Positions 1 to 40,870 of a DNA stretch of 40,996 bases are shown one piece after another. The stretch lies in IMG/VR virus record IMGVR_UViG_3300019873_000001, positions 1-40,996 of that record. The stretch is one strand, 5' to 3'. The first letter of the stretch is position 1; each line of letters starts with the position of its first letter. The notes beneath the pieces are model-generated. The model was not told the DNA's origin. It did not search any database and worked only from the letters and a program-made list of their open reading frames with translations. The DNA is from a virus. The position numbers and the translations under genes are program-made.

Positions 1-86
1 ACCAAATCAATACACTTATCAGGTAAAGTTTTCATAAATTCTAGGCAATCCACATTATGTATTTTATTTAATTCTAGTTCTTTCAT
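1..86 (-). CDS. DPPY-type DNA methyltransferase, 5' end only (cut by window edge)
   Basis: These 28 codons start with ATG at 86-84 and are identical to the N-terminus of the methyltransferase at 38720-39413. The window edge cuts the gene before its DPPY motif. Its TGA/ATG overlap with the 31-codon gene upstream matches the arrangement of the full copy. It is the version B end of the same gene, not a second complete gene. Confidence 0.75.
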   Translation of the reverse strand, partial: MKELELNKIHNVDCLEFMKTLPDKCIDL

Positions 87-178
87 TTCTTTCTGCGGAC
101 AAAGTAACGATCTCTACTGGGACGAAAGCCAAATGATATGTCCCACAAGTACTTTAAGATTCTATTAAGAGTTTTCAT
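83..178 (-). CDS. 31-aa basic small protein (version B copy)
   Basis: This short frame encodes a very basic peptide (R/K-rich C-terminus ending RRKK). Its ATG overlaps the stop of the MT-A70 gene, and its TGA overlaps the ATG of the DPPY methyltransferase, both as ATGA. The copy at 39410-39505 has the same length. Differences between copies are three silent changes plus S/D, G/D and I/V, and no frame breaks, which supports real coding. The function is unknown; a nucleic-acid-binding peptide is only a guess from the charge. Confidence 0.6.
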   Translation of the reverse strand: MKTLNRILKYLWDISFGFRPSRDRYFVRRKK

Positions 179-747
179 AATTCAATATCACTTTTAACTT
201 CATTTCCCCACGCCGACCATCCATCAAGAGGATTTTCATTAAATAGATTCCTGCTTCCATTATTGCGGGCGAAAAGTTCTATTCTGGGTAAATCTCCGCA
301 AAATTCTACGATTCTTTTTCTTACAATGTCTGGTTTCCTTGAATGCTCCTCTCTTGTAGTTTCAATAATGCTTGAAATCTTGTTGCTGATTTTAGGAGCT
401 TTGCCCTTTACACCGATTAAACATACTTCCGCATTTGACTTAGTGTACCAACCCACCCCGAAGAAATTACTCCCATTTTTATTTTTCTTTATCCAAGTGA
501 ACCCGACTGTCTTGTATTCAAACCCCCATGCTTTTATTACATCTAACGCCTCTTGAAGTTTAGGGAATGTCGCCCAGAGAAACAGAATACAATTATCGTC
601 TGCCATTTCCGCTATCGGTAATTTACAAATATCTTCGTTAGCCATAGTTGGATAATGTGCATTTGCGGTCGCTTGTATATTTCCCATGTTCCGGTAAGCC
701 CATGGCGGATCAGCGTAAATTATTTGATATTTCTTTATTTCATCCAT
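175..747 (-). CDS. MT-A70 family adenine methyltransferase
   Basis: This 190-aa protein is predicted to methylate adenine N6 in DNA using SAM. The MT-A70 catalytic DPPW motif is at residues 13-16 after a YA dipeptide. It also has the family's internal blocks: LFLWAT, a WGFEY block followed by FTWIKK, EHSRKPD near residue 133, RIELFARN, and a GWSAWGNEV-like end. The length is normal for a single-domain phage member. It lies between the 61-aa and 31-aa genes with overlaps on both sides. Version A of this locus (39.4 kb) lacks it, so it is an accessory cassette. A longer relative is at 34849-35718. No partner endonuclease is visible, so protection against host restriction is the likely role. Confidence 0.85.
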   Translation of the reverse strand: MDEIKKYQIIYADPPWAYRNMGNIQATANAHYPTMANEDICKLPIAEMADDNCILFLWATFPKLQEALDVIKAWGFEYKTVGFTWIKKNKNGSNFFGVGWYTKSNAEVCLIGVKGKAPKISNKISSIIETTREEHSRKPDIVRKRIVEFCGDLPRIELFARNNGSRNLFNENPLDGWSAWGNEVKSDIEL

Positions 748-920
748 TCGGGCTTATATTTTATAAAAAGTTGTTTCATCTTTTCTCTATCAATTTCTTC
801 TGCGGGATTTTCTTCTATTATTGGTGAGAGTTTCTTGTCTAGGTCTTTAGTAACTACAAAAACATCTCTCTTGGGATCGTAGTAGCCGTCAATTTTCTTT
901 TCGCCTTTTTTATTTTCCAT
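735..920 (-). CDS. Hypothetical 61-aa protein (allele of 39492-39689)
   Basis: No known family was recognised. It is clearly homologous to the 65-aa protein at 39492-39689. Both share a basic start, a GY(Y/M)D motif, LSP near the middle, (D/E)xID(A/R)EKMK and an ending of KYxPxWM. It overlaps the MT-A70 start by 13 bases. Strong divergence from its counterpart with conservation of pattern suggests a real, fast-evolving early protein. Confidence 0.65.
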   Translation of the reverse strand: MENKKGEKKIDGYYDPKRDVFVVTKDLDKKLSPIIEENPAEEIDREKMKQLFIKYKPEWMK

Positions 921-923
921 ATT

Positions 924-1238
924 TTAAGTAATTATTTCTCCAGTCGCCCTATCAATTTTAATTATTTTTAACTCAGTAAGCCTTTCAGGTTTAGGAAAAG
1001 GATTTTCCGTACTTATTCTCCAATTAGGTTTATTCTCCATCTTAAAAAGAGTAATGAGGTATGGTTCTTTAGAAATCGCATTCGTCTGTGCACGTTGTTC
1101 TTTTCGCTCCTTCTTTGCCGCTTTTCTCTCTGCCTTTTGCTCCGGCGTTAATTCAGGTTTTGGTTTTGCCAATTCTTCTACTTTCTTTTTATCTTCCTCT
1201 GATAAAATTGTAGCACTTAAATTTATTCCTTTTTTCAT
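924..1238 (-). CDS. Hypothetical 104-aa charged protein (version B only)
   Basis: The function was not recognised. Residues 15-52 are highly charged (K/E/R-rich, probably a helix or coiled coil), followed by a C-terminal segment ending in a DRATGEII motif. In version A the same slot holds an unrelated-looking 119-aa protein (39686-40045). It is the first gene of the version B early operon, followed at once by the 61-aa gene. No Shine-Dalgarno sequence precedes the ATG. Confidence 0.6.
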   Translation of the reverse strand: MKKGINLSATILSEEDKKKVEELAKPKPELTPEQKAERKAAKKERKEQRAQTNAISKEPYLITLFKMENKPNWRISTENPFPKPERLTELKIIKIDRATGEIIT

Positions 1239-1503
1239 TTTTGCTCATTTTATTTTTAATAAAGTACAGCCCCCACTTTGTGCCTTGGATACCACATTAG
1301 AGCGACCTATCTACACAATTGCATTATCTTTAGTTCCATAATAGCCCAGCATTATTACGATGTCAGATATTTAATACTCTGCTAACCAAGTCGGAGTTGT
1401 CAGTGGGGAGGACATTGCTCCAATTTCGCCAGCAGATTATTTCTAGGGAGCGTTTTACGAGGTGCTACCTAAATCTCGTTTCATTGTGATTGTAAAAACG
1501 CAA

Positions 1504-1533
1504 AAGTCCCCAGCTCAATTAAGGCGGGGACTT
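1504..1533. terminator. Bidirectional rho-independent terminator candidate
   Basis: AAGTCCCC (1504-1511) pairs with GGGGACTT (1526-1533) around a 14-base loop. T-rich sequence follows on both strands (TTTTGCG on minus, CCGGTTTT on plus). Confidence 0.5.
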
Positions 1534-1540
1534 CCGGTTT

Positions 1541-1629
1541 TATGTTTCGTAAAACAACTACACACTACAACAAATTCGCCTGAAAAGCAAACCGAGGAAT
1601 ATGCAAATGTTTTACTTTTACGAAACATA
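1541..1629. repeat. Perfect 14-bp inverted repeat with 61-bp spacer
   Basis: TATGTTTCGTAAAA at 1541-1554 is the exact reverse complement of 1616-1629. The spacing is too long for a simple terminator. Paired regulator sites, a long-range hairpin or a recombination-type site are possible. It is present only in version B. Confidence 0.7.
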
Positions 1630-1719
1630 CCTAAATTATAGAGCAAACAAGGGTAAATGCAAGTGGAAAAGCTGTTAATAAACCAATACAAAACAAAAAT
1701 AAAACAAGTCAAGTATAAA

Positions 1720-1793
1720 ACGCAGAAAGCCGGCGATTTTACGCCGACTTCTGATTCATATATGAGGTGTAGAGCCGCATAATAAGCGGGTAC
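1720..1793 (-). ncRNA. Candidate small RNA with own promoter and terminator
   Basis: A sigma70-like promoter (1800-1828) would start transcription near 1793, running leftward. About 40 bases on, a perfect minus-strand 9-bp stem (1727-1735/1742-1750, one G-U pair, 6-base loop) is followed by TTTCTGCGTTTTA. Inside lies a small hairpin, CCGC-loop-GCGG (1774-1788). The result would be a roughly 70-nt RNA or a terminated leader in front of the early genes. This is inferred from sequence only. Confidence 0.4.
1727..1750 (-). terminator. Rho-independent terminator
   Basis: A 9-bp GC-rich stem with an ATTTTA loop on the plus strand. On the minus-strand RNA the single mismatch becomes a G-U pair, and a T-rich tail follows, so it acts leftward. 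Confidence 0.6.
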
Positions 1794-1799
1794 TGCTAC

Positions 1800-1828
1800 A
1801 TTATACACTAAAAACACAAAGGGGGCAA
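1800..1828 (-). promoter_or_regulatory. Sigma70-like promoter for candidate small RNA
   Basis: On the minus strand: -35 TTGCCC (1828-1823), 17-bp spacer, -10 TATAAT (1805-1800). The -35 lies inside the 1822-1840 hairpin. Confidence 0.5.
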
Positions 1829-1840
1829 GGTTATTGCCCC
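1822..1840 (-). terminator. Terminator-like hairpin
   Basis: GGGGCAA (1822-1828) pairs with TTGCCCC (1834-1840) around a 5-base loop. On minus it is followed by CTTTGTGTTTTTAG, an imperfect T tract. Confidence 0.5.
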
Positions 1841-1896
1841 GATCATGCCATGAAATGTGCAGGTGCGAAAAGATTAAACGCCCTGCCCCAAAAAAG

Positions 1897-1925
1897 TGTC
1901 GGGGAAAATTAACAAAGACCCGACA
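1897..1925 (-). terminator. Rho-independent terminator
   Basis: TGTCGGG (1897-1903) pairs with CCCGACA (1919-1925); on minus, CTTTTTT follows. A further imperfect hairpin without a T tract lies just left of it (1859-1886, GCAGGTGCG/CGCCCTGC). Confidence 0.6.
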
Positions 1926-1939
1926 GTAAAATTATATAA

Positions 1940-1970
1940 AAAGCGTGGGAAGAAGTCCAACCCACGCTTT
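1940..1970 (-). terminator. Strong rho-independent terminator ending the late operon
   Basis: AAAGCGTGGG (1940-1949) pairs over 10 bp with CCCACGCTTT (1961-1970). On minus it is followed by a T-rich stretch (TTTATATAATTTT). It lies after the last small late gene (2006-2092) and is the first of several stops in series. Confidence 0.7.
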
Positions 1971-2005
1971 GTTTCCGAACTCTACGTCCGAGTCGGATAC
2001 CTCCT

Positions 2006-2092
2006 TTAAAGCATTAAGAGAAGAATTACTACTCCAAAGAACAATGTGCAACCAATAACCTCAGGAAGCCATTGAACGATTTTTTCTTTCAT
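2006..2092 (-). CDS. 28-aa single-pass membrane peptide
   Basis: ATG at 2092, TAA at 2008-2006. The first ten residues are hydrophilic, then a continuous hydrophobic segment (about residues 12-28, rich in V/I/L/F) fills the rest. It lies just before the terminator array, downstream of another tiny membrane gene. The function is unknown; a lysis-accessory or host-membrane role is a guess from position. Confidence 0.45.
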   Translation of the reverse strand: MKEKIVQWLPEVIGCTLFFGVVILLLML

Positions 2093-2101
2093 AGGCGTTG
2101 C

Positions 2102-2206
2102 TTAGTTAAAAATAAAGAACACCAGAAACACTGCGACAAAGATTAAGAAACAAATGATTTCAAACAACCATTGTCTGACCCACATTTTGATTCTAAAGCG
2201 GTTCAT
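2102..2206 (-). CDS. 34-aa single-pass membrane peptide
   Basis: A basic N-terminus (R/K, two W) is followed by a hydrophobic stretch over about residues 14-33. AAAGGA lies about 5 bases before the ATG, one of the few Shine-Dalgarno-like sequences in the window. It is the second of a pair of tiny membrane genes at the end of the late transcript. The function is unknown. Confidence 0.45.
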   Translation of the reverse strand: MNRFRIKMWVRQWLFEIICFLIFVAVFLVFFIFN

Positions 2207-2222
2207 GATGTCCTTTCTACAG

Positions 2223-2271
2223 TGTCCAAACCTGCTTCGCAAGGCGAGCAGGCGAGGAGCATATCCGGACA
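2223..2271 (-). other. Structured intergenic hairpin
   Basis: Outer TGTCC/GGACA arms (2223-2227/2267-2271) enclose a CCTGCT...AGCAGG stem (2231-2252). It is higher in GC than its surroundings, lies between two late genes and lacks a T tract. Confidence 0.35.
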
Positions 2272-2292
2272 GTGAGGTTTGTTTGTGTCCGT

Positions 2293-2541
2293 CTAATCCG
2301 CACCTTCCGCCTCCTTTGGGGGATTGTTAGCGGGAGTTTTAGGCACAAGAACCTGCGGCTCGCCTCTCGTGTCAGCTTGATGGGTTTCATGTTTTCCTTT
2401 CTTTTGGTTTACGTATGCATTGAGACAATTTATGTCTTTGCATATCCAAGTCTCTACTCCATTACTGCACTGCATGGCGATTCTTGGATAACGATTGCCG
2501 CAGATTACGCATGTTCTCAGGTCGTGGTTTTCAGGTGGCAT
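2293..2541 (-). CDS. Small zinc-ribbon-like protein, 82 aa
   Basis: Four cysteines in two pairs (CVIC near residue 11 and two more near residues 34 and 39) suggest a bound zinc. The C-terminal 40 residues are hydrophilic, with P-rich ending, and probably disordered. It is the last gene of more than 60 codons on the late transcript, after a terminator at 2585-2607, so it may have partial independent expression from AT-rich sequence near 2570. No family was recognised. Confidence 0.55.
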   Translation of the reverse strand: MPPENHDLRTCVICGNRYPRIAMQCSNGVETWICKDINCLNAYVNQKKGKHETHQADTRGEPQVLVPKTPANNPPKEAEGAD

Positions 2542-2584
2542 AGATAGTTTATGTGAAGGACGTTTCTTCTATTATATATAAAAG

Positions 2585-2607
2585 AAAAAATCCCGACTAG
2601 CGAGATT
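2585..2607 (-). terminator. Rho-independent terminator
   Basis: AATCCCG (2589-2595) pairs with CGAGATT (2601-2607, one G-U pair on the minus RNA) around ACTAG. Reading leftward it runs into TTTTTTCTTT. Confidence 0.6.
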
Positions 2608-2672
2608 TCTTCTGAGTCCTTATTTGTTTCTCCCATGTTCTCCAGTCGTGACCAGAGAATAGTTCGAAAGTA

Positions 2673-2825
2673 TTATTTTACCCTATAAAACAAGAAAATA
2701 AAAACAACTGCTAGGATAACAGCGAGAATGTACCACCAAATACAACCTTTAGGTTTATCGAAAGGTCGATGTTCAATAGCTTCATTCAAGGCACTTTCTT
2801 TTATTTTGTCTATGTTATTTCTCAT
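2673..2825 (-). CDS. 50-aa C-terminal-anchor membrane protein
   Basis: About 27 charged N-terminal residues are followed by a W-rich hydrophobic span (residues 30-47) and a short basic tail. It lies directly downstream of the putative endolysin and before a terminator, so it belongs to the lysis end of the late operon. No family was recognised. Confidence 0.5.
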   Translation of the reverse strand: MRNNIDKIKESALNEAIEHRPFDKPKGCIWWYILAVILAVVFIFLFYRVK

Positions 2826-2835
2826 TTAATTTTTG

Positions 2836-3885
2836 TCAAACTGCCAGATTTAACTGAGCAAAAGTTAACGGACCAACACGTCCATCGGGAGATAAGTTAT
2901 GGGCTAACTGAAATTTAACCACAGAAGCTTTAGTGATATTTCCATAGATGCCATCAAACCCTAAATTACTTGGATAATAGCCTCCTTTCTGCAGATATTG
3001 TTGCAGTTGCCGCACTTCTTCATTTTTATCTCCGAATTTCATATTTTTTGTAAAGACAAAAGTTGGCAGTTCTCCACTTTCATAAATAAATTCCATTGGA
3101 TACTTAACTAAGAAATTTCTAGCAGTGAAAAAACTTCTTGAAATGTATCGCACAGATAACCCTCCAAAGTGAGCGGAATCTTCTATCCTGATATATTCTT
3201 CGCCGTCTATCAGTCCGCAATCCACGGCCGTTACTGAATGTCGCGAAGCCCGCGAACCATAAGGGTCAGCCAAGTTCTCCCTTATTTTCGGGTAAAGTGT
3301 AGACCATTCGGCAGAGGTAAAAAAGAACCAGCACATAATTCCCTTGCCGGTAGTTTGTATTGTTGAAGCTACCCTGTCAAAATCTCCGCTCGGAATGGTG
3401 ATATGACTGCCTAGGACGAATCCTTTAGCGACTTCTTTAGCAAAGTTGGAAACTGTTACGGAGTCCGCTTCCTGTATCTGGTTACTGCGGGAAATAGCTT
3501 CAAGGGAAATTCCTTTACTTTGCCAGATATCAAAAGCGTCGTTGCCTATCATTCCTTCGGCTGGCTTGTTTATCCGATAAAAATAGATGGAATTAGGGGA
3601 AAATTGCAGAAACGTCTCTGTCTTTAACCAGAAATTTATCAGAGCGAGTTTGGCGACTGTAAATGCAACACACTTACTCGTGAAAAACTGATTAAGAATA
3701 GGAAAACTCCGCCATTCATTACCAGCGTTAGGGTCTTTCTCCACCCATTCTATAGGGTTGATTGCTCCTACGAACTCTGTTTGTAGGTAGTCTTTAGCTT
3801 TCTCCTCGTCGCTACGTAAATCCGAAGCCCCTTGATAGCTGTCGTAGAATTTATCTATCTCATTTTTTAGGTTATTTTTATTCAT
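2836..3885 (-). CDS. Papain-like cysteine peptidase with peptidoglycan-binding domain; putative endolysin
   Basis: A 349-aa protein likely to cut or bind the cell wall at lysis. The N-terminal domain (about residues 40-265) shows a papain-like layout: NQ at 65-66 before Cys72 in SKCVAF, His216 in a SRHSV block, and Asp236 in EDSAHFGG. Residues 283-347 are a classic PG_binding_1 repeat (GDKNEEVRQLQQYL, FDGIYG, AVxxFQ-like, DGRVGPLT). There is no signal peptide, so export would need the holin. It follows the holin and two tiny zinc-type genes. A virion-associated or receptor-processing peptidase is an alternative. Most phage lysins are muramidases or amidases, so this domain pair is unusual. 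Confidence 0.7.
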   Translation of the reverse strand: MNKNNLKNEIDKFYDSYQGASDLRSDEEKAKDYLQTEFVGAINPIEWVEKDPNAGNEWRSFPILNQFFTSKCVAFTVAKLALINFWLKTETFLQFSPNSIYFYRINKPAEGMIGNDAFDIWQSKGISLEAISRSNQIQEADSVTVSNFAKEVAKGFVLGSHITIPSGDFDRVASTIQTTGKGIMCWFFFTSAEWSTLYPKIRENLADPYGSRASRHSVTAVDCGLIDGEEYIRIEDSAHFGGLSVRYISRSFFTARNFLVKYPMEFIYESGELPTFVFTKNMKFGDKNEEVRQLQQYLQKGGYYPSNLGFDGIYGNITKASVVKFQLAHNLSPDGRVGPLTFAQLNLAV

Positions 3886-3912
3886 CTAAATCATTACTAA
3901 AATCTTCTATCT

Positions 3913-4008
3913 TCACCACTGCGTAGCATTCCTCACAGAGAAAATGGATGCCTTGTTAGTGCATACATCGCACGTCGGTATTTTAGTTTTTTCTTCATTT
4001 TGTGTCAT
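3913..4008 (-). CDS. 31-aa small protein with one CxxC
   Basis: ATG at 4008, overlapping the end of the preceding 53-aa gene by 14 bases. It has one CDVC motif after a charged start. It sits between holin and endolysin. The function is unknown. Confidence 0.35.
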   Translation of the reverse strand: MTQNEEKTKIPTCDVCTNKASIFSVRNATQW

Positions 4009-4156
4009 TTTGATTCATCAACCTCAAAAAACAAGATTGGCACGCAAAGATTGAAGCCCCGATAACGAATTCAAGTTCCCACCTAAAAGACTGTCCGCAC
4101 ATTCCACAGACATTCCGCAAAAGTTTACTATCTGCTCCTTTCTCTTCTCTTATCAT
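3995..4156 (-). CDS. 53-aa zinc-ribbon-like protein
   Basis: Two cysteine pairs (CGMC near residue 17 and CQSC near residue 39) frame a small beta-type core, typical of a zinc ribbon. It starts 4 bases after the holin stop codon. The function is unknown. Confidence 0.5.
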   Translation of the reverse strand: MIREEKGADSKLLRNVCGMCGQSFRWELEFVIGASIFACQSCFLRLMNQNDTK

Positions 4157-4160
4157 TTAT

Positions 4161-4403
4161 CTATTTTACACTAACAGTCGCTTTTGTGCCGCTATATAAG
4201 CCAGCCGCCGAAAGTCCAGCTAGAACACCTTGCAATGCGATTGCTCCCGTTAACGCAAAATCATTTAGGAGCCACACCCCGACAACACCTAGCACGATAG
4301 CTAAAATTGGAGCAAAACGACTAGTCATGCCTATTTTTTTAATTGCCGCTACAACACCGACTATAATTGGAATGAGAACGAGAAACATTGGGTTAATATC
4401 CAT
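4161..4403 (-). CDS. Holin-like membrane protein
   Basis: An 80-aa protein with an N-terminal hydrophobic segment (about 5-22), a second (32-48), and a weaker third ending in GLSAAGLYSGTKA. This is the composition and size of small phage holins, which open the inner membrane and release the endolysin. It lies immediately upstream of the peptidoglycan-active gene and has its own extended -10 promoter at 4441-4446. The assignment rests on topology and position. Confidence 0.6.
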   Translation of the reverse strand: MDINPMFLVLIPIIVGVVAAIKKIGMTSRFAPILAIVLGVVGVWLLNDFALTGAIALQGVLAGLSAAGLYSGTKATVSVK

Positions 4404-4440
4404 AAATTTAATTCGTAAATTACTAATAATCTCGACCTAC

Positions 4441-4446
4441 ATTATA
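4441..4446 (-). promoter_or_regulatory. Extended -10 promoter upstream of holin
   Basis: The minus strand reads TGA-TATAAT, an extended -10, with transcription expected to start near 4434. No clear -35 was found. It would allow separate timing of lysis genes. Confidence 0.45.
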
Positions 4447-4453
4447 TCATTTT

Positions 4454-4906
4454 TCAGTAGCTTCCAATTCCGAACGATTCACTAACAAAGTCCAATTCTT
4501 CCGTTTTAAGTGGATTTACTTTTATACTGATGCTGTCCCGCAGTTTGTACATTCCCACCTCGATTCTTTGAGGCACAGTAACATTCTGTATTTCCTTTGA
4601 ACATCCCTTTGTGAAGTGAGTAGCTCTGTCCGACACATCCCACAATTCGCCTGTTTCCGTGTTCTCTAATTGCCTGCTCACTACCAAATATAATTCTTTG
4701 GAGGAACAATACTCCACTTCATAATTCAAAGTATATCCTTGTCCGATACTGGGAGAAATGACTTTATAGGGCTGGACAACCTTTAACCAATTAGCAGGTT
4801 GGATAATAAGAAATGAAGCGTAAACAGCTACTATTGCTAAAAAAAGGGTAGCATAAGAAACAACCTGTGCCATTCTTTCTTCAGTTATTCCTAGAATTGT
4901 TTTCAT
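4454..4906 (-). CDS. Membrane-anchored protein, 150 aa, lysis region
   Basis: One hydrophobic segment (about residues 14-36) follows a short cytoplasmic start. The remaining 110 residues are soluble and predicted beta-rich, with two cysteines (about residues 68 and 102), so probably outside the membrane. Its ATG overlaps the stop of the 80-aa gene upstream (ATGA). The topology would fit a spanin-like or superinfection-blocking protein, but no family was recognised. Confidence 0.55.
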   Translation of the reverse strand: MKTILGITEERMAQVVSYATLFLAIVAVYASFLIIQPANWLKVVQPYKVISPSIGQGYTLNYEVEYCSSKELYLVVSRQLENTETGELWDVSDRATHFTKGCSKEIQNVTVPQRIEVGMYKLRDSISIKVNPLKTEELDFVSESFGIGSY

Positions 4907-5145
4907 GCTTTTGCGGAAAGTAAATTCAATAATTGGGAAAGAACATAGACTAAAATTATTCCTATGGCGCTGTAAAGAATCTTGGTTAAAAAGGCTACTT
5001 TGTCTTCTAATGCTTTGAATTCTTTTTGGCTGACATAGTCATTCTTTAAGTCAAGGTCAATCTCTTTAACTTTCTCCTTAATAAAAGCGATGTCGGATTG
5101 CACTATCGCTAGGTCTATATCTTCTTGACGCTTGTTGTATTCCAT
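4903..5145 (-). CDS. XhlA-like helix plus C-terminal membrane anchor, 80 aa
   Basis: A charged amphipathic helix with heptad-like spacing (residues 5-52) is followed by one hydrophobic span (56-76). This resembles haemolysin XhlA-type lysis accessory proteins that sit beside holins. Translation of the next gene is coupled through ATGA. The assignment is by architecture, not by a clear motif. Confidence 0.5.
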   Translation of the reverse strand: MEYNKRQEDIDLAIVQSDIAFIKEKVKEIDLDLKNDYVSQKEFKALEDKVAFLTKILYSAIGIILVYVLSQLLNLLSAKA

Positions 5146-5607: not shown

Positions 5608-5853
5608 TCATAGAATATCTGATAAATCTTGCTTAAAGGCGGCATTGGAAGCGGTGGCTGCGGCGACTCCCGCTTCATATCGCAGTATCTCCTGTTTTAT
5701 GACATCCAATATCCAATTCTTTGAATACGTGCTTGGCGTAATAGGATTAGGAATTGCCTCTCCCTGTTCGTTAGCGATTGTTGCATGATAACCCGTAGCT
5801 TCTAAGAATCTAGCCACCTTGTCATTAGGAATTGAAAGTTGTATCGTTGCCAT
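5608..5853 (-). CDS. Hypothetical 81-aa protein downstream of fibre genes
   Basis: A soluble protein with alternating strand/helix pattern and an alanine-rich helix near residues 58-72. It is preceded by AT-rich sequence without a Shine-Dalgarno. Proteins of this size in this position often help fibre assembly, but nothing in the sequence proves that. Confidence 0.5.
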   Translation of the reverse strand: MATIQLSIPNDKVARFLEATGYHATIANEQGEAIPNPITPSTYSKNWILDVIKQEILRYEAGVAAATASNAAFKQDLSDIL

Positions 5854-5895
5854 TTGTTTATTATATTATTAACTAATAATTAACATTATACTATA

Positions 5896-5970
5896 TTATT
5901 TTCCAGCATGAATAAAGTTTCCTAATAAAATTGCTATCGCTACTACTAAAATTATCAAAAATATAATCAT
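5896..5970 (-). CDS. 24-aa membrane peptide
   Basis: An almost entirely hydrophobic peptide (I/L/V/A over residues 2-17). Its ATG overlaps the stop of the 141-aa gene as ATGA, the usual coupling in this genome, which argues for real translation. The function is unknown. Confidence 0.4.
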   Translation of the reverse strand: MIIFLIILVVAIAILLGNFIHAGK

Positions 5971-6392
5971 GCTGATGCCAAGAAATATAGAACCCATAGT
6001 TCAATAACGCCTGCTGTTAAAGCTGCCGTTCCAATAGTAAATGTTATTTGTCCTGCTCCTGTTATTTTTTTTGGAACAGCAAAAGAGGTTACTGTTAATA
6101 AAACTACATTTAACCCCAAACTTGCTTTAGCCGTTGCCGCAAGTAAGGTGGTAGTAGAACCACCTGTGCCAGAACATCCGATAGCTACTGTCGCTAAACC
6201 TGCTGACGTAACGGCTGTAGTAACATTTACCGCACCCCCAACCAACACTGCATTCGCTGGAATGGTAGTATTAAATGAAGCTCCTGGCGTTATAGTACTA
6301 ACTAAACCTCCGTCAACTGCAAAACTATATTTAGCCCAAGCTATACCCATACTTCCATTCAACCCATTTGTTCCCATATAAAATATACCCAT
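5967..6392 (-). CDS. Putative minor structural protein, 141 aa
   Basis: Rich in Gly, Ala, Thr and Val with alternating beta pattern and few charges, as in phage decoration or fibre-tip proteins. It starts one base after the stop of the S74 fibre gene. No specific family was recognised, but a virion surface role is likely from composition and neighbours. Confidence 0.5.
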   Translation of the reverse strand: MGIFYMGTNGLNGSMGIAWAKYSFAVDGGLVSTITPGASFNTTIPANAVLVGGAVNVTTAVTSAGLATVAIGCSGTGGSTTTLLAATAKASLGLNVVLLTVTSFAVPKKITGAGQITFTIGTAALTAGVIELWVLYFLASA

Positions 6393-19608: not shown

Positions 19609-20136
19609 TTAGATACCCATAACTTTCTTAAATGCTTTTTCGTGTTCCTCGCGGGACATATCTGGCTTGATTAAGGATTCATCTTCCGATTCACCTGAAC
19701 CTTTTGAAGCACCAAGTTTAGCTTTTTCCTTCTTTTCTTTCTCTTTCAGCGTCGTCTGATAAGAGAGAAATAGAGGGTCTTTGATTGCCTCTTGCAGAGT
19801 CATGTCTGCGCCTTTGGCAATAACTTTCGCCTTTTCGATTTCTTCATCTGATAGTCCGCGAGCAATTAGTTTGAGTTCTTCTGAAAGTTGTGGGTCATTG
19901 TTAACGGGAAGCTTAGCTTCTTTCAGAGCTTTTAACTCTGCTTCAGCTTTTGTAGCTCTACCGATAGCGTCTTTAGCAAATTTCTTTGCTTTTTCCGCTT
20001 CTATCTTTAGAACTTCAGTGTCTTCCTGTTCACTGGTTTCGTTGCTATTGGTAGCTTCGTGAACCTCTGTGTTTGTGTCCACAGCGACATCTTCAGCTTC
20101 GTCAGCCATAGATATTTGATGGTTTATGCCTCTCAT
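19609..20136 (-). CDS. Putative scaffolding protein, 175 aa
   Basis: Very acidic N-terminus (about 45 residues rich in E/D/T), a coiled-coil middle (K/A/E heptads, 42-75) and a basic/acidic C-terminal tail: the usual composition of scaffolds. It lies directly before the coat gene. The start at 20136 overlaps the TGA of a 20-codon frame as ATGA; an in-frame ATG ten codons in (MADEAED) is an alternative start. Confidence 0.65.
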   Translation of the reverse strand: MRGINHQISMADEAEDVAVDTNTEVHEATNSNETSEQEDTEVLKIEAEKAKKFAKDAIGRATKAEAELKALKEAKLPVNNDPQLSEELKLIARGLSDEEIEKAKVIAKGADMTLQEAIKDPLFLSYQTTLKEKEKKEKAKLGASKGSGESEDESLIKPDMSREEHEKAFKKVMGI

Positions 20137-36990: not shown

Positions 36991-37128
36991 TTATTTTTCT
37001 ATTTTTTCTTTTAAGACAGAACGCACGACCTCCGCCTCGGAAATATCTCCCTCCTTGGCGGAGCGTTCTATCCATTGCTTATAATCCTTTGGTATCAAAA
37101 CTTTTAAGATAACCTGTTTTGTTTTCAT
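36991..37128 (-). CDS. Ribbon-helix-helix DNA-binding protein, 45 aa
   Basis: A strand (QVILKVLIP), helix (KDYKQWIERSAKEG), turn (DIS) and second helix (EAEVVRSVLKEKIEK): the Arc/CopG fold. A dimeric repressor is likely; a 15-bp palindrome at 37974-37988 is a candidate operator. Confidence 0.6.
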   Translation of the reverse strand: MKTKQVILKVLIPKDYKQWIERSAKEGDISEAEVVRSVLKEKIEK

Positions 37129-38719: not shown

Positions 38720-39413
38720 CTAAAATAAGGTGTTGCTTATGCTTTTAATTCTTGCTTCGGCGATTTTGCAGTATTTAGGGGATATTTCACAGCCGATGTA
38801 GTTTCGCTTATCTAATTTACACGCTATTGCGGTGCTACCGCTTCCTAGAAATGGATCAAAAATAATTTCTCCTTCTTTGGAATAATCTCGCAAGATTTGT
38901 CGCATCAACTCTATCGGTTTTTGAGTAGGGTGATATCGTTCTTCTTTATTCCTGCCCATTTGTTCTTGTAGCATCCCGTTCCATTTCCATTTATATTTTC
39001 TTATTGCGGTTTTGAAGGATGTCCACATAAGCTCACAATCAGCAAAAAAACTTTCTCCATTGTCTTTATCCCAAACCAACCAACAAGAGGAATTACTTAA
39101 ATGCTCTACAAAATAATTTCCACCGAAGATAATTTGATTTTTGCTTATTCGCATCATTTCTTCGAATACTTCTTTATTCGGGATTTTAGTATCATCAAAT
39201 CCCAAGTAACTTTTGGGGGCGATACTCCTTGTATGCCCACCTTTACCGAACGGCTTTGCCCCGCCGACTTCAACTCTCTCTCTCGATTGGCTTACCCACG
39301 TTTATTCCATACGGCGGGTCTGTTAGTACCAAATCAATACACTTATCAGGTAAAGTTTTCATAAATTCTAGGCAATCCACATTATGTATTTTATTTAATT
39401 CTAGTTCTTTCAT
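38720..39413 (-). pseudogene. DPPY-type DNA methyltransferase, split at a (GA)n tract (possibly phase-variable)
   Basis: The ATG at 39413 opens 47 codons with VDCLEFMKTLPDK and LTDPPYGI (catalytic DPPY at 32-35) and stops at TGA 39272-39270. The rest continues one frame over: GGHTRSIAPKSYLGFDD, ISKNQIIFGGNYF, PTQKPIELMRQIL, DPFLGSGSTAIAC (SAM motif I) and NYIGCEI, to 38720. The switch lies at an 11-base GA run (39274-39284). One extra GA unit, or one base less, would join both into a normal 230-aa N4/N6 methyltransferase. Either slippage switching, a strain mutation or an assembly error. Confidence 0.8.
39274..39284 (-). repeat. (GA)5G dinucleotide tract inside methyltransferase
   Basis: GAGAGAGAGAG on minus. 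The up- and downstream reading frames differ by exactly the amount restored by adding one GA unit. Confidence 0.85.
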
Positions 39414-39505
39414 TTCTTTCTGCGGATAAAGTAACGACCTCTACTAGGACGAAAGCCGAATGATATGCTCCACAAATACTTTAAGATTCTATTAAGAGTT
39501 TTCAT
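39328..39505. repeat. Right copy of diverged direct repeat (version A)
   Basis: Counterpart of 1-178. Marks the left branch point between versions A and B. Confidence 0.9.
39410..39505 (-). CDS. 31-aa basic small protein (version A copy)
   Basis: Same length and overlaps as 83-178; TGA overlaps the methyltransferase ATG. The substitution pattern between copies is mostly silent or conservative. Unknown function. Confidence 0.6.
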   Translation of the reverse strand: MKTLNRILKYLWSISFGFRPSRGRYFIRRKK

Positions 39506-39689
39506 TTGGCATCCATGAAGGACGATATTTCTTAAATAATAATTTCATCTTTTCTGCATCAATATCCTCTAGTGGATGTTCTGACTCCTGTGGTGAAAGA
39601 ACTTGGTCAGGATCGGCAGTTATGACATATACACCCCTTGCTTCATCCATATATCCTTCCACTCTTCTTTTTTGTGGTTGTTTTTTCAT
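39492..39689 (-). CDS. Hypothetical 65-aa protein (allele of 735-920)
   Basis: Shares GYMDEARG, VLSP, EDIDAEKMK and KYRPSWM patterns with the 61-aa protein of version B. Overlaps neighbours on both sides. Function unknown. Confidence 0.65.
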   Translation of the reverse strand: MKKQPQKRRVEGYMDEARGVYVITADPDQVLSPQESEHPLEDIDAEKMKLLFKKYRPSWMPNENS

Positions 39690-40045
39690 TTAAGTAGTTT
39701 AGTTTTTGCTTCTTCTAAAGGTAATTCCAAGACTTGCGGATTTTTTCCCGCCAAGGATGCTACTTGTTTTGCATCAAACAGGGCGTCTCTTAATTTTTTA
39801 TCCACTCCTTTAGCGCGAATTTCGTTCCAATCATCATCGTCCAGCGTATGTGTCGGATTCCACCCCATAGTTTCATTATACGCGGGTTGAATCTCTTGTA
39901 TATTCTTTCCTATTAACGCCAAACCATTACTAAACACGCCCCTCTCCTCCGGATGTAGAAACAAATAGTATGCCTTGTGTGCTTCGTCAGCTTCTATAAC
40001 TAAATACTGCTCTTGCCTAAACCCTGTGATTATCTTTATTTTCAT
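39686..40045 (-). CDS. Hypothetical 119-aa protein (version A only)
   Basis: Alpha/beta start (MKIKIITGFRQEQYLVIEADEAHKAYYLF over residues 1-29, abridged: IKIITGF, LVIEADEAHKAYY), then a helical end. Occupies the slot of the 104-aa gene of version B. Coupled by ATGA to the initiator-like gene. No family recognised. Confidence 0.55.
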   Translation of the reverse strand: MKIKIITGFRQEQYLVIEADEAHKAYYLFLHPEERGVFSNGLALIGKNIQEIQPAYNETMGWNPTHTLDDDDWNEIRAKGVDKKLRDALFDAKQVASLAGKNPQVLELPLEEAKTKLLK

Positions 40046-40737
40046 TGGAATGCTATTTTGGGCTTTTCTTTTTGTTTGCCCTTTAATTTTAATATCCCAG
40101 CTTCAAGAGACGACCATTTCTCTAAAAGTTGTGTCGGACTGATAATTGTAGGTAAATACTCTAGTTTATTCGTTTTGGGTAGAGTATTCTCAATTACATT
40201 CTTTATTCTTTCAAACCCAAAAAGTGAAATAAGCTCCGCGCATGCACTTCTTTGGTTGGGTCGTTTGTAGAAATTCTTTGCATTTGGGTTGATTGCTTCA
40301 AAGGACTTTATAAGAAGATTTATCTCCTCCAAACCCTGTTTGGTGTCTATTCTGTCTTTGTCTACTGTTACTGTCTTATTAGATTCTACATTTTCGTTAG
40401 GAGATTCTACATTTTTGTTGAATCTAATAGATTCTACATTTTTGTTGAATCTCTTTTTGGCTTTCATCACTCTGATACTCAATCCATAAGGGGTTCTGAT
40501 TTTTTTGATATAGCCCTCCGCTTCTAATTTATCTAGGTTTCTTGAAATAGTCATCTCTTCTACTCCATCTGCCATATCCTTTAGTTTGATTGGTTTTCCA
40601 CCTAAAACCCAACCCATACCCGCATCATCTATTTTTGTAATTTTATCTATGAGCCACATAAACTCCCAAACTGCGGAGCTGATCCTTTTTCTATGTCCAT
40701 CTTTTAACAAACCATTTGAAATAGTGATGTAATACAT
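40042..40737 (-). CDS. Replication initiator-like helix-turn-helix protein, 231 aa
   Basis: The start at 40737 (MYYITISNGL) is preferred; a longer frame from a TTG at 40812 would begin inside the -10 element. Residues 15-100 form a winged-helix-type domain (GHRKRISSAVWEFMWLIDKITKID, GGKPIKLKDMADG, TISRNLDKLEAEGYIKKIRTPYG). A linker with repeated FNKNVES motifs follows, then a helical C-terminus. Phage replisome organisers share this layout and carry their origin inside the gene, and here iteron-like DNA repeats lie in the linker. Absent from version B. Confidence 0.6.
   Translation of the reverse strand: MYYITISNGLLKDGHRKRISSAVWEFMWLIDKITKIDDAGMGWVLGGKPIKLKDMADGVEEMTISRNLDKLEAEGYIKKIRTPYGLSIRVMKAKKRFNKNVESIRFNKNVESPNENVESNKTVTVDKDRIDTKQGLEEINLLIKSFEAINPNAKNFYKRPNQRSACAELISLFGFERIKNVIENTLPKTNKLEYLPTIISPTQLLEKWSSLEAGILKLKGKQKEKPKIAFQ
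40381..40452. repeat. Iteron-like repeats, candidate replication origin
   Basis: AGATTCTACATTTTTGTTGA followed by ATCT at 40402-40425 and 40429-40452 (identical 24-mers, 27-bp period), plus a partial third copy at 40381-40401. The 40420-40434 junction is a GAATCTA-A-TAGATTC palindrome. Located inside the initiator-like gene. Confidence 0.6.
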
Positions 40738-40811
40738 ACTCGACCCAAAAATGAAAATACTACCGCCCTCTTGGGAGATAGCGATAGTATCTTCATCCCA
40801 AGAGTATATCA

Positions 40812-40817
40812 ATTATA
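40812..40817 (-). promoter_or_regulatory. Extended -10 promoter of early operon (version A)
   Basis: The minus strand reads TGG-TATAAT; transcription would start near 40805, about 68 bases before the chosen initiator ATG. A 30-codon frame starting at ATG 40797-40795 lies in this leader and overlaps the gene start, perhaps as a leader peptide. Confidence 0.55.
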
Positions 40818-40870
40818 CCAAAAATTCGGCAAGGTAAATATCTTCCAAGTGAATTAAAAGTGGATAACTC

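Follow-up and report, generated by a model that had tools for sequence, protein, structure and literature searches.

A row of promoter-like sites and terminator-like hairpins, including a candidate small RNA, between the late and early genes of a tailed phage

Results

Gene organization and two early-region alleles

The window, by which we mean the whole stretch of DNA analysed, spans a 40,996-base virus record. No DNA similarity to annotated phages was found, and the terminase reaches a best identity of 30.7% among 50,697 phage records, with no annotated close relative found for this phage group. Family matches revealed a terminase, an endolysin, a holin, a DnaD-like loader and an MT-A70 methylase, all encoded on the minus strand, and the candidate element is therefore to be read on that strand. 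It sits between the lysis genes, namely the holin-like gene (4161-4403) and the endolysin-like gene (2836-3885), and the early genes. The first-pass annotation had placed it between the late and early operons, and the family matches bear this out, the labels "late" and "early" being taken from the putative gene functions.

The early region is present in two versions. Allele A (1-1715) carries the MT-A70 methylase (175-747) and the ORF 924-1238, and allele B (39328-40870) carries the DnaD-like gene (40042-40812) and the ORF 39686-40045. The contig start (1-178) shares 96% identity with 39328-39505, with the first 99 bases exact, while the segment 1716-1841 at the allele branch point recurs as an exact 126-bp copy at the contig end (40871-40996), with no identity continuing leftward of this repeat. 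The interval originally marked as the element coincides exactly with this repeat, the length of which probably reflects an assembly overlap rather than biology. The record is a lasso and not a simple linear genome, and one circular population with two early-region alleles is its simplest reading. The two alleles part directly after the tail of the terminator-like hairpin T4 and share the sequence upstream, so that, as had been claimed, the unit precedes the early genes of either version, and T4 marks a module border.

Read along the minus strand of allele A (2010 down to 1495), the gap presents in order the hairpin T1, a TATAAT (1936-1931), the hairpins H2 and H3, the TTTCATGGC linker, the hairpin T3, a second TATAAT (1805-1800), a CCGC/GCGG hairpin, T4 and the early region. 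We term the predicted transcripts of the first and second TATAAT RNA-1 and RNA-2, respectively.

Predicted structure of RNA-2

The promoter-like site of RNA-2 (1800-1828, minus strand) consists of TTGCCC (1828-1823), a 17-nt spacer and TATAAT, just as first annotated, and agrees with 10 of the 12 sigma-70 consensus positions, this consensus being assumed for the host. It has no TGn extension. The -35 hexamer scores only 4/6 and lies entirely within the 3' arm of T3 (1840-1822), and part of the promoter score is thus a by-product of the hairpin. From this site a transcript of 75-80 nt is predicted (1718-1794, minus strand), the start and end of which we infer from the motifs. It contains a small CCGC-loop-GCGG hairpin (1775-1789) without a T tract behind it, and would be closed by T4 (1726-1751), the stem of which has 10 pairs, 6 of them GC. 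In keeping with an intrinsic terminator, this GC-rich stem is followed by a T-rich tail, CTGCGTTTTA, in which the T tract is interrupted. Hence the motifs of the transcript of about 70 nt with a 9-bp hairpin and T-rich tail, as originally described, are indeed present, with a longer predicted product, one more pair in the stem and a broken tail. The predicted 77-nt RNA (1794-1718) folds at -25.7 kcal/mol with a z of -3.96, which was equalled by 0 of 200 shuffles.

Several other identities were considered for the same stretch. A 100-aa ORF (1515-1817) spans the A/B junction and has no PHROG match, and the longest ATG ORF contained entirely in RNA-2 has 13 codons, with no ribosome site evident; we rejected both protein-coding readings. 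A tRNA/tmRNA search found none, and Rfam gave no match in the window at gathering score; at E values up to 5 over 1240-2100 it gave five matches, all far under their gathering scores.

Chance occurrence of the promoter-terminator layout

When the flanking hairpins were kept in place and the intervening 70 nt were shuffled 20,000 times, 1.3% of shuffles contained a promoter scoring 10/12 or better between T3 and T4, and 9.7% one scoring 9/12 or better. Shuffling of 1241-2010 (n=1000) yielded at least two promoter-terminator units of a loose kind in 0.6% of cases and a unit of a strict kind in none, compared to two of each in the real sequence, the strict thresholds having been set after the element was seen. 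The same region holds three terminator-like hairpins against a shuffle mean of 0.49, with 1% of shuffles reaching three. Over 1-5000, terminator-like sites are somewhat in excess (8 against 4.0 expected), and promoter-like sites show no general excess (15 against 12.3).

A competing reading is a passive boundary, in which T1, H2, T3 and T4 form a stack of terminators separating the late operon from the early one. The promoter match would then be accidental, made up of a TATAAT in AT-rich DNA and a hairpin arm whose letters spell TTGCCC, with no RNA-2 product. The excess of terminator-like hairpins, the ordinary promoter count and the -35 hexamer inside a hairpin arm are all consistent with this reading. 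Against it, a promoter of such quality at this place is expected in only 1.3% of shuffles, and both H3 and the CCGC/GCGG hairpin lack the T tract of a terminator. We consider the passive boundary a serious competitor, though with less than an even chance of being right.

The predicted RNA-1 unit and its likely counterparts in relatives

Immediately upstream, T1 (GCGTGGG/CCCACGC, 1943-1967, minus strand) stands behind the last late genes. The second promoter-like site of the gap, TGGACT-17-TATAAT (1931-1959), also scores 10/12. The predicted structured RNA-1 (1810-1928) comprises H2 (1897-1925), with a TGTCGGG/CCCGACA stem and a 15-nt U-rich loop, followed by CTTTTTT; H3 (1859-1886), formed by GCAGGGCG and CGC-A-CCTGC without a T tract behind; the TTTCATGGC linker; and T3. 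Its folding z is -3.59.

The near relative IMGVR_UViG_3300019873_000002 (G001) shares the late end of the window, with 92% identity over 2200-2662 and 84% over 2037-2205. T1 is conserved there, with the letters ACAAAGCGTGGGTT matching at 14/14, as is TATAATTTT of the RNA-1 promoter-like site (9/9). Past TATAATTTT the letters differ, but both sequences fold into successive hairpins whose loops are U-rich, with a terminator-like hairpin at the end; the G001 counterpart folds with a z of -8.22. A second relative, IMGVR_UViG_3300012168_000002 (G003), has TTTACA-18-TATAAT (11/12) behind its last late genes (an amidase, L095:6074-6604, and the ORF 5746-6006), followed by one hairpin with the loop TTTCTACAAATT, then TTTCATAAGC, and then a terminator-like hairpin. 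The layout of TATAAT, hairpin, TTTCAT linker and terminator in RNA-1 is found at the same place in all three phages. The return of the linker and loop letters in relatives speaks against a purely passive boundary, and the position of the G001 hairpin row between convergent genes, where termination alone would suffice, speaks for it.

A hairpin-TTTCAT-terminator descriptor gave 4 matches in 1,181,387 bases, 3 of the 4 at the RNA-1 places of the three phages. As shuffled sequence gave 2, 6 and 10 matches, the count is no rarer than chance and proves nothing; only the position of the three matches counts. Local alignments of the units are not significant (P 0.092 for the window and G001, 0.091 for G001 and G003, and 0.85 for the window and G003), so RNA-1 rests on position, anchors and layout. 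No MAFFT alignment of the three units was obtained, and Rfam found nothing in six relative loci. An IMG/VR pattern derived from G001 and G003 gave 47 matches, of which only those two have stem, terminator and no ORF; because the pattern was made from these two, this indicates rarity and not homology. Taken together, RNA-1 is likely, but not proven, to be a real structured RNA with counterparts in G001 and G003.

Search for relatives of RNA-2

The first-pass annotation had looked to conservation of the promoter and stem in relatives, which is largely absent for RNA-2: no relatives were found by pattern scans of IMG/VR or among 50 related records. Exact-letter scans of IMG/VR, which miss copies with altered letters, gave 0 matches with TACCCGCTTATTATGCGG and 3 with ACCTCATATATGAATC, all within long ORFs; records very close to that of the window were possibly left out of the searches. 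Comparison of 1640-1990 against the 50 related records gave only five matches of 15-43 nt; the two of these that touch T4 or its tail fall within ORFs (405 and 404 aa). At the RNA-2 place, G001 has no such unit, and a convergent epimerase gene starts there. Following the neighbouring ORF 924-1238 led to no relatives, and the endolysin and 2293-2541 each led only to G001. Homology of RNA-2 to other units was tried and rejected, with P 0.054 for the allele A unit downstream, 0.52 for G001 and 0.13 for G003; the P of 0.016 for RNA-1 is the best of ten compared pairs and is not convincing. This lack of conservation is a further point in favour of the passive boundary.

A structure hot spot and similar units across the group

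Folding of 1019 windows of 120 nt revealed a structure hot spot at about 1430-2030, which contains 6 of the 16 minus-strand windows with z < -3, and two more lie in the allele B leader (40711-40870). The mean z is -2.23 in the 10 windows of 1480-2010, compared to -0.40 in 91 other intergenic windows. Elsewhere, the most strongly folding windows genome-wide were found at 19911-20070 (minus strand, z -5.32 and -4.66), inside the ORF 19609-20136, and an intergenic window at 36991-37110 (minus strand, z -4.06) holds a hairpin CTCCGCC...GGCGGAG.

A survey of the gaps in 50 pieces taken from 27 records of relatives (94,868 bases scanned on both strands; some of the pieces share as much as 1 kb, and coverage of some records is incomplete) found 15 promoter-terminator units against a shuffle mean of 1.85 (maximum 4 in 20 shuffles), and 8 stricter units against 0.35. 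RNA-2 was left out of this count because it lies inside a called ORF. Two of the units stand directly before portal-like genes (G021 and G028), and a third occupies a terminase-portal gap in front of a 53-aa ORF. RNA-2 agrees with this tendency among the related phages to place promoter-terminator units in gaps.

An extended -10 element, TGnTATAAT, occurs in the terminase-portal gap of 24/72 loci (for example L064, L071, L065, L066, L012, L037 and L044). Several of these gaps show, within the next 50-70 nt, a stretch resembling GCCAACAGAARGACTGGGG and, directly before an ATG, a hairpin with T's; this is possibly a leader RNA. Moreover, TTATCCAC(A), the DnaA-box word, precedes promoter-like sites of initiator or portal genes in several phages, at about 3620 in L142, at about 4465 in L095 (minus strand), at 40867-40860 in the window (minus strand) and in the terminase-portal gaps of L096 and L098.

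Allele-specific sites downstream of T4 and a leader before the replication initiator

Behind T4, each allele has a promoter-like site of its own. The allele A unit (1501-1640, minus strand) consists of a TATAAT (1640-1635), an inverted repeat (1541-1554/1616-1629) and a terminator-like hairpin (1536-1501). In allele B (40731-40817, minus strand), an extended -10-like TGGTATAAT (40817-40812) is followed by a 20-bp leader hairpin that adjoins the DnaD-like gene at its likely ATG (about 40737).

These sites bear on the attenuated leader that the first-pass annotation had offered beside an early regulatory RNA. In that reading, early transcription would begin at the 1805 promoter, and T4 would act as an attenuator that lets polymerase pass once the early genes are required. 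Such a leader is expected to have a gene directly downstream with no promoter between, whereas in the window the TATAAT sites at 1640 (A) and 40817 (B) intervene, which makes the reading weak for RNA-2. Nor does a gene start close behind T4, the likely ATG of allele B lying about 135 nt on and the first ORF of allele A about 480 nt on, and no antiterminator signal was identified. The location of the early genes downstream of T4 in both alleles agrees with attenuation, as do the relatives' promoter and terminator-like hairpin units directly before portal-like genes and the stable hairpins before initiator genes described below. On balance we judge it quite improbable for RNA-2, which at the level of motifs is a fair candidate for the small RNA of the earlier proposal; the term "attenuated leader" suits the adjacent downstream RNA well, and better than the element originally named.

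By following the boundary through relatives of the ORF 39686-40045, we found a very stable hairpin (z -4.0 to -6.6) directly before the replication-initiator gene in 6/8 phages or alleles examined; L145 and L146 have no such hairpin (z -0.04 and -0.19). In L142 (3693-3775, plus strand), L144 (3679-3760, plus strand) and G003 (L095:4300-4395, minus strand), the leader forms one structure column for column, with 28 pairs and 96.4% of cells paired in an alignment made by MAFFT on letters alone, the structure being derived from the same three sequences. Fifteen of the 28 pairs are changed on both sides, compared to 5.4 in shuffles, and 0 of 500 shuffles reach 15; sliding the alignment by 1-3 columns reduces the paired cells to 42-52%. 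The gene behind the leader is DnaD-like in L142 and L144, and in G003 its best match is to O-like initiator families. Rfam had no match on L142, L143 and L095, and a covariance model of the leader, run on 58 sources (947,709 bases), recovered no new member, only the three sequences from which it was built and the reverse strands of these. In an unfiltered search of the window, the two best matches of the model were 40807-40731 in allele B (E 0.22) and 1630-1535 in allele A (E 1.6). Both scores are weak; the places are telling, the former at the start of the DnaD-like gene and the latter at the same relative position.

Discussion

We propose that RNA-2 is the last member of a short row of promoter-hairpin-terminator units occupying the late/early gap in this tailed phage, an assignment that we regard as close to an even call. 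Late transcription would end at T1-T3. Initiation at the TATAAT of 1936 would give the short RNA-1, ended at T3, and RNA polymerase starting at the TATAAT of 1805-1800 would make an RNA-2 of 75-80 nt with a small hairpin and stop at T4. The terminators of the row would thereby prevent late transcripts from entering the early region, and the promoters of the row would yield short structured RNAs. The early genes would be transcribed from sites of their own past T4. Any regulatory action of these RNAs is putative.

The proposal draws support from the 10/12 promoter between two terminator-like hairpins, from the rarity of the unit layout in shuffles, from the CCGC/GCGG hairpin with no T's behind it, a feature superfluous in a plain stack of terminators, from the folding hot spot together with the RNA-1 layout upstream that is also present in G001 and G003, and from the excess of promoter-terminator units in related gaps. 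It is weakened by the lack of a relative among the records searched and the broken T4 tail, by a -35 of 4/6 within the T3 arm and the ease with which 9/12 promoters arise, by the absence of the TGn seen in a third of the related terminase-downstream gaps, and by the location elsewhere of the genome's most strongly folding windows. Pairing of RNA-2 with the phage's own gene starts is at shuffle level as well (best -25.9 kcal/mol against a shuffle average of -25.7, P 0.48). Altogether, we place the small RNA a little ahead of the passive boundary, at slightly better than even between the two, with the passive stack close behind.

Among known phage-encoded small RNAs, lambda OOP and P22 sar are antisense to known neighbours (PMC12197685). 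RNA-2, which is predicted from motifs, would resemble both in being a short RNA with its own promoter near the replication/early region, and differs in that no annotated opposite-strand gene, target or relatives were found for it. Its predicted order of promoter, short RNA, terminator and downstream operon is also that of the lambda 6S RNA. The latter is made behind pR', ends at the terminator tR', precedes the late genes and is opened by Q, whereas the RNA-2 unit precedes early genes that have their own TATAAT sites. In phage HK022, the put RNA forms two stem-loops close behind an early promoter, and the put sites prevent termination; RNA-2 likewise has two stem-loops close behind its promoter-like site, but the second is itself terminator-like. 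Intrinsic terminators at operon ends are GC-rich hairpins with T-rich tails, similar to those behind the last late genes of the window, which, unlike plain operon-end terminators, are interspersed among promoter-like sites and among hairpins that lack a T tract.

A wider reading, which we hold to be rather unlikely, is that the whole late/early gap works as an RNA switch, in which the row of RNA-1 and RNA-2 ends the late operon and a conserved leader outside Rfam holds the initiator through control of termination or translation. The modelled leader would wrap the start codon and end in a GC stem followed by U's. It appears to be kept across phages with O-like (G003) or DnaD-like (L142 and L144) initiators, and may be echoed in both alleles of the window.

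Terminase relatives (47-65% identity) were found on three contigs from binned genomes, of which one is named Candidatus Nomurabacteria and two only "bacterium", and a Patescibacteria host may be considered as a lead only. The label "nzgw" in the isolate names presumably stands for groundwater. The hosts of these viruses are probably uncultured. If RNA-2 is made, this phage group, for which no annotated close relative was found, would gain a small RNA. The initiator leader next door is a more interesting object than RNA-2 and the more useful lead, as its 15 two-sided changes among 28 pairs point to a testable RNA control of phage replication.
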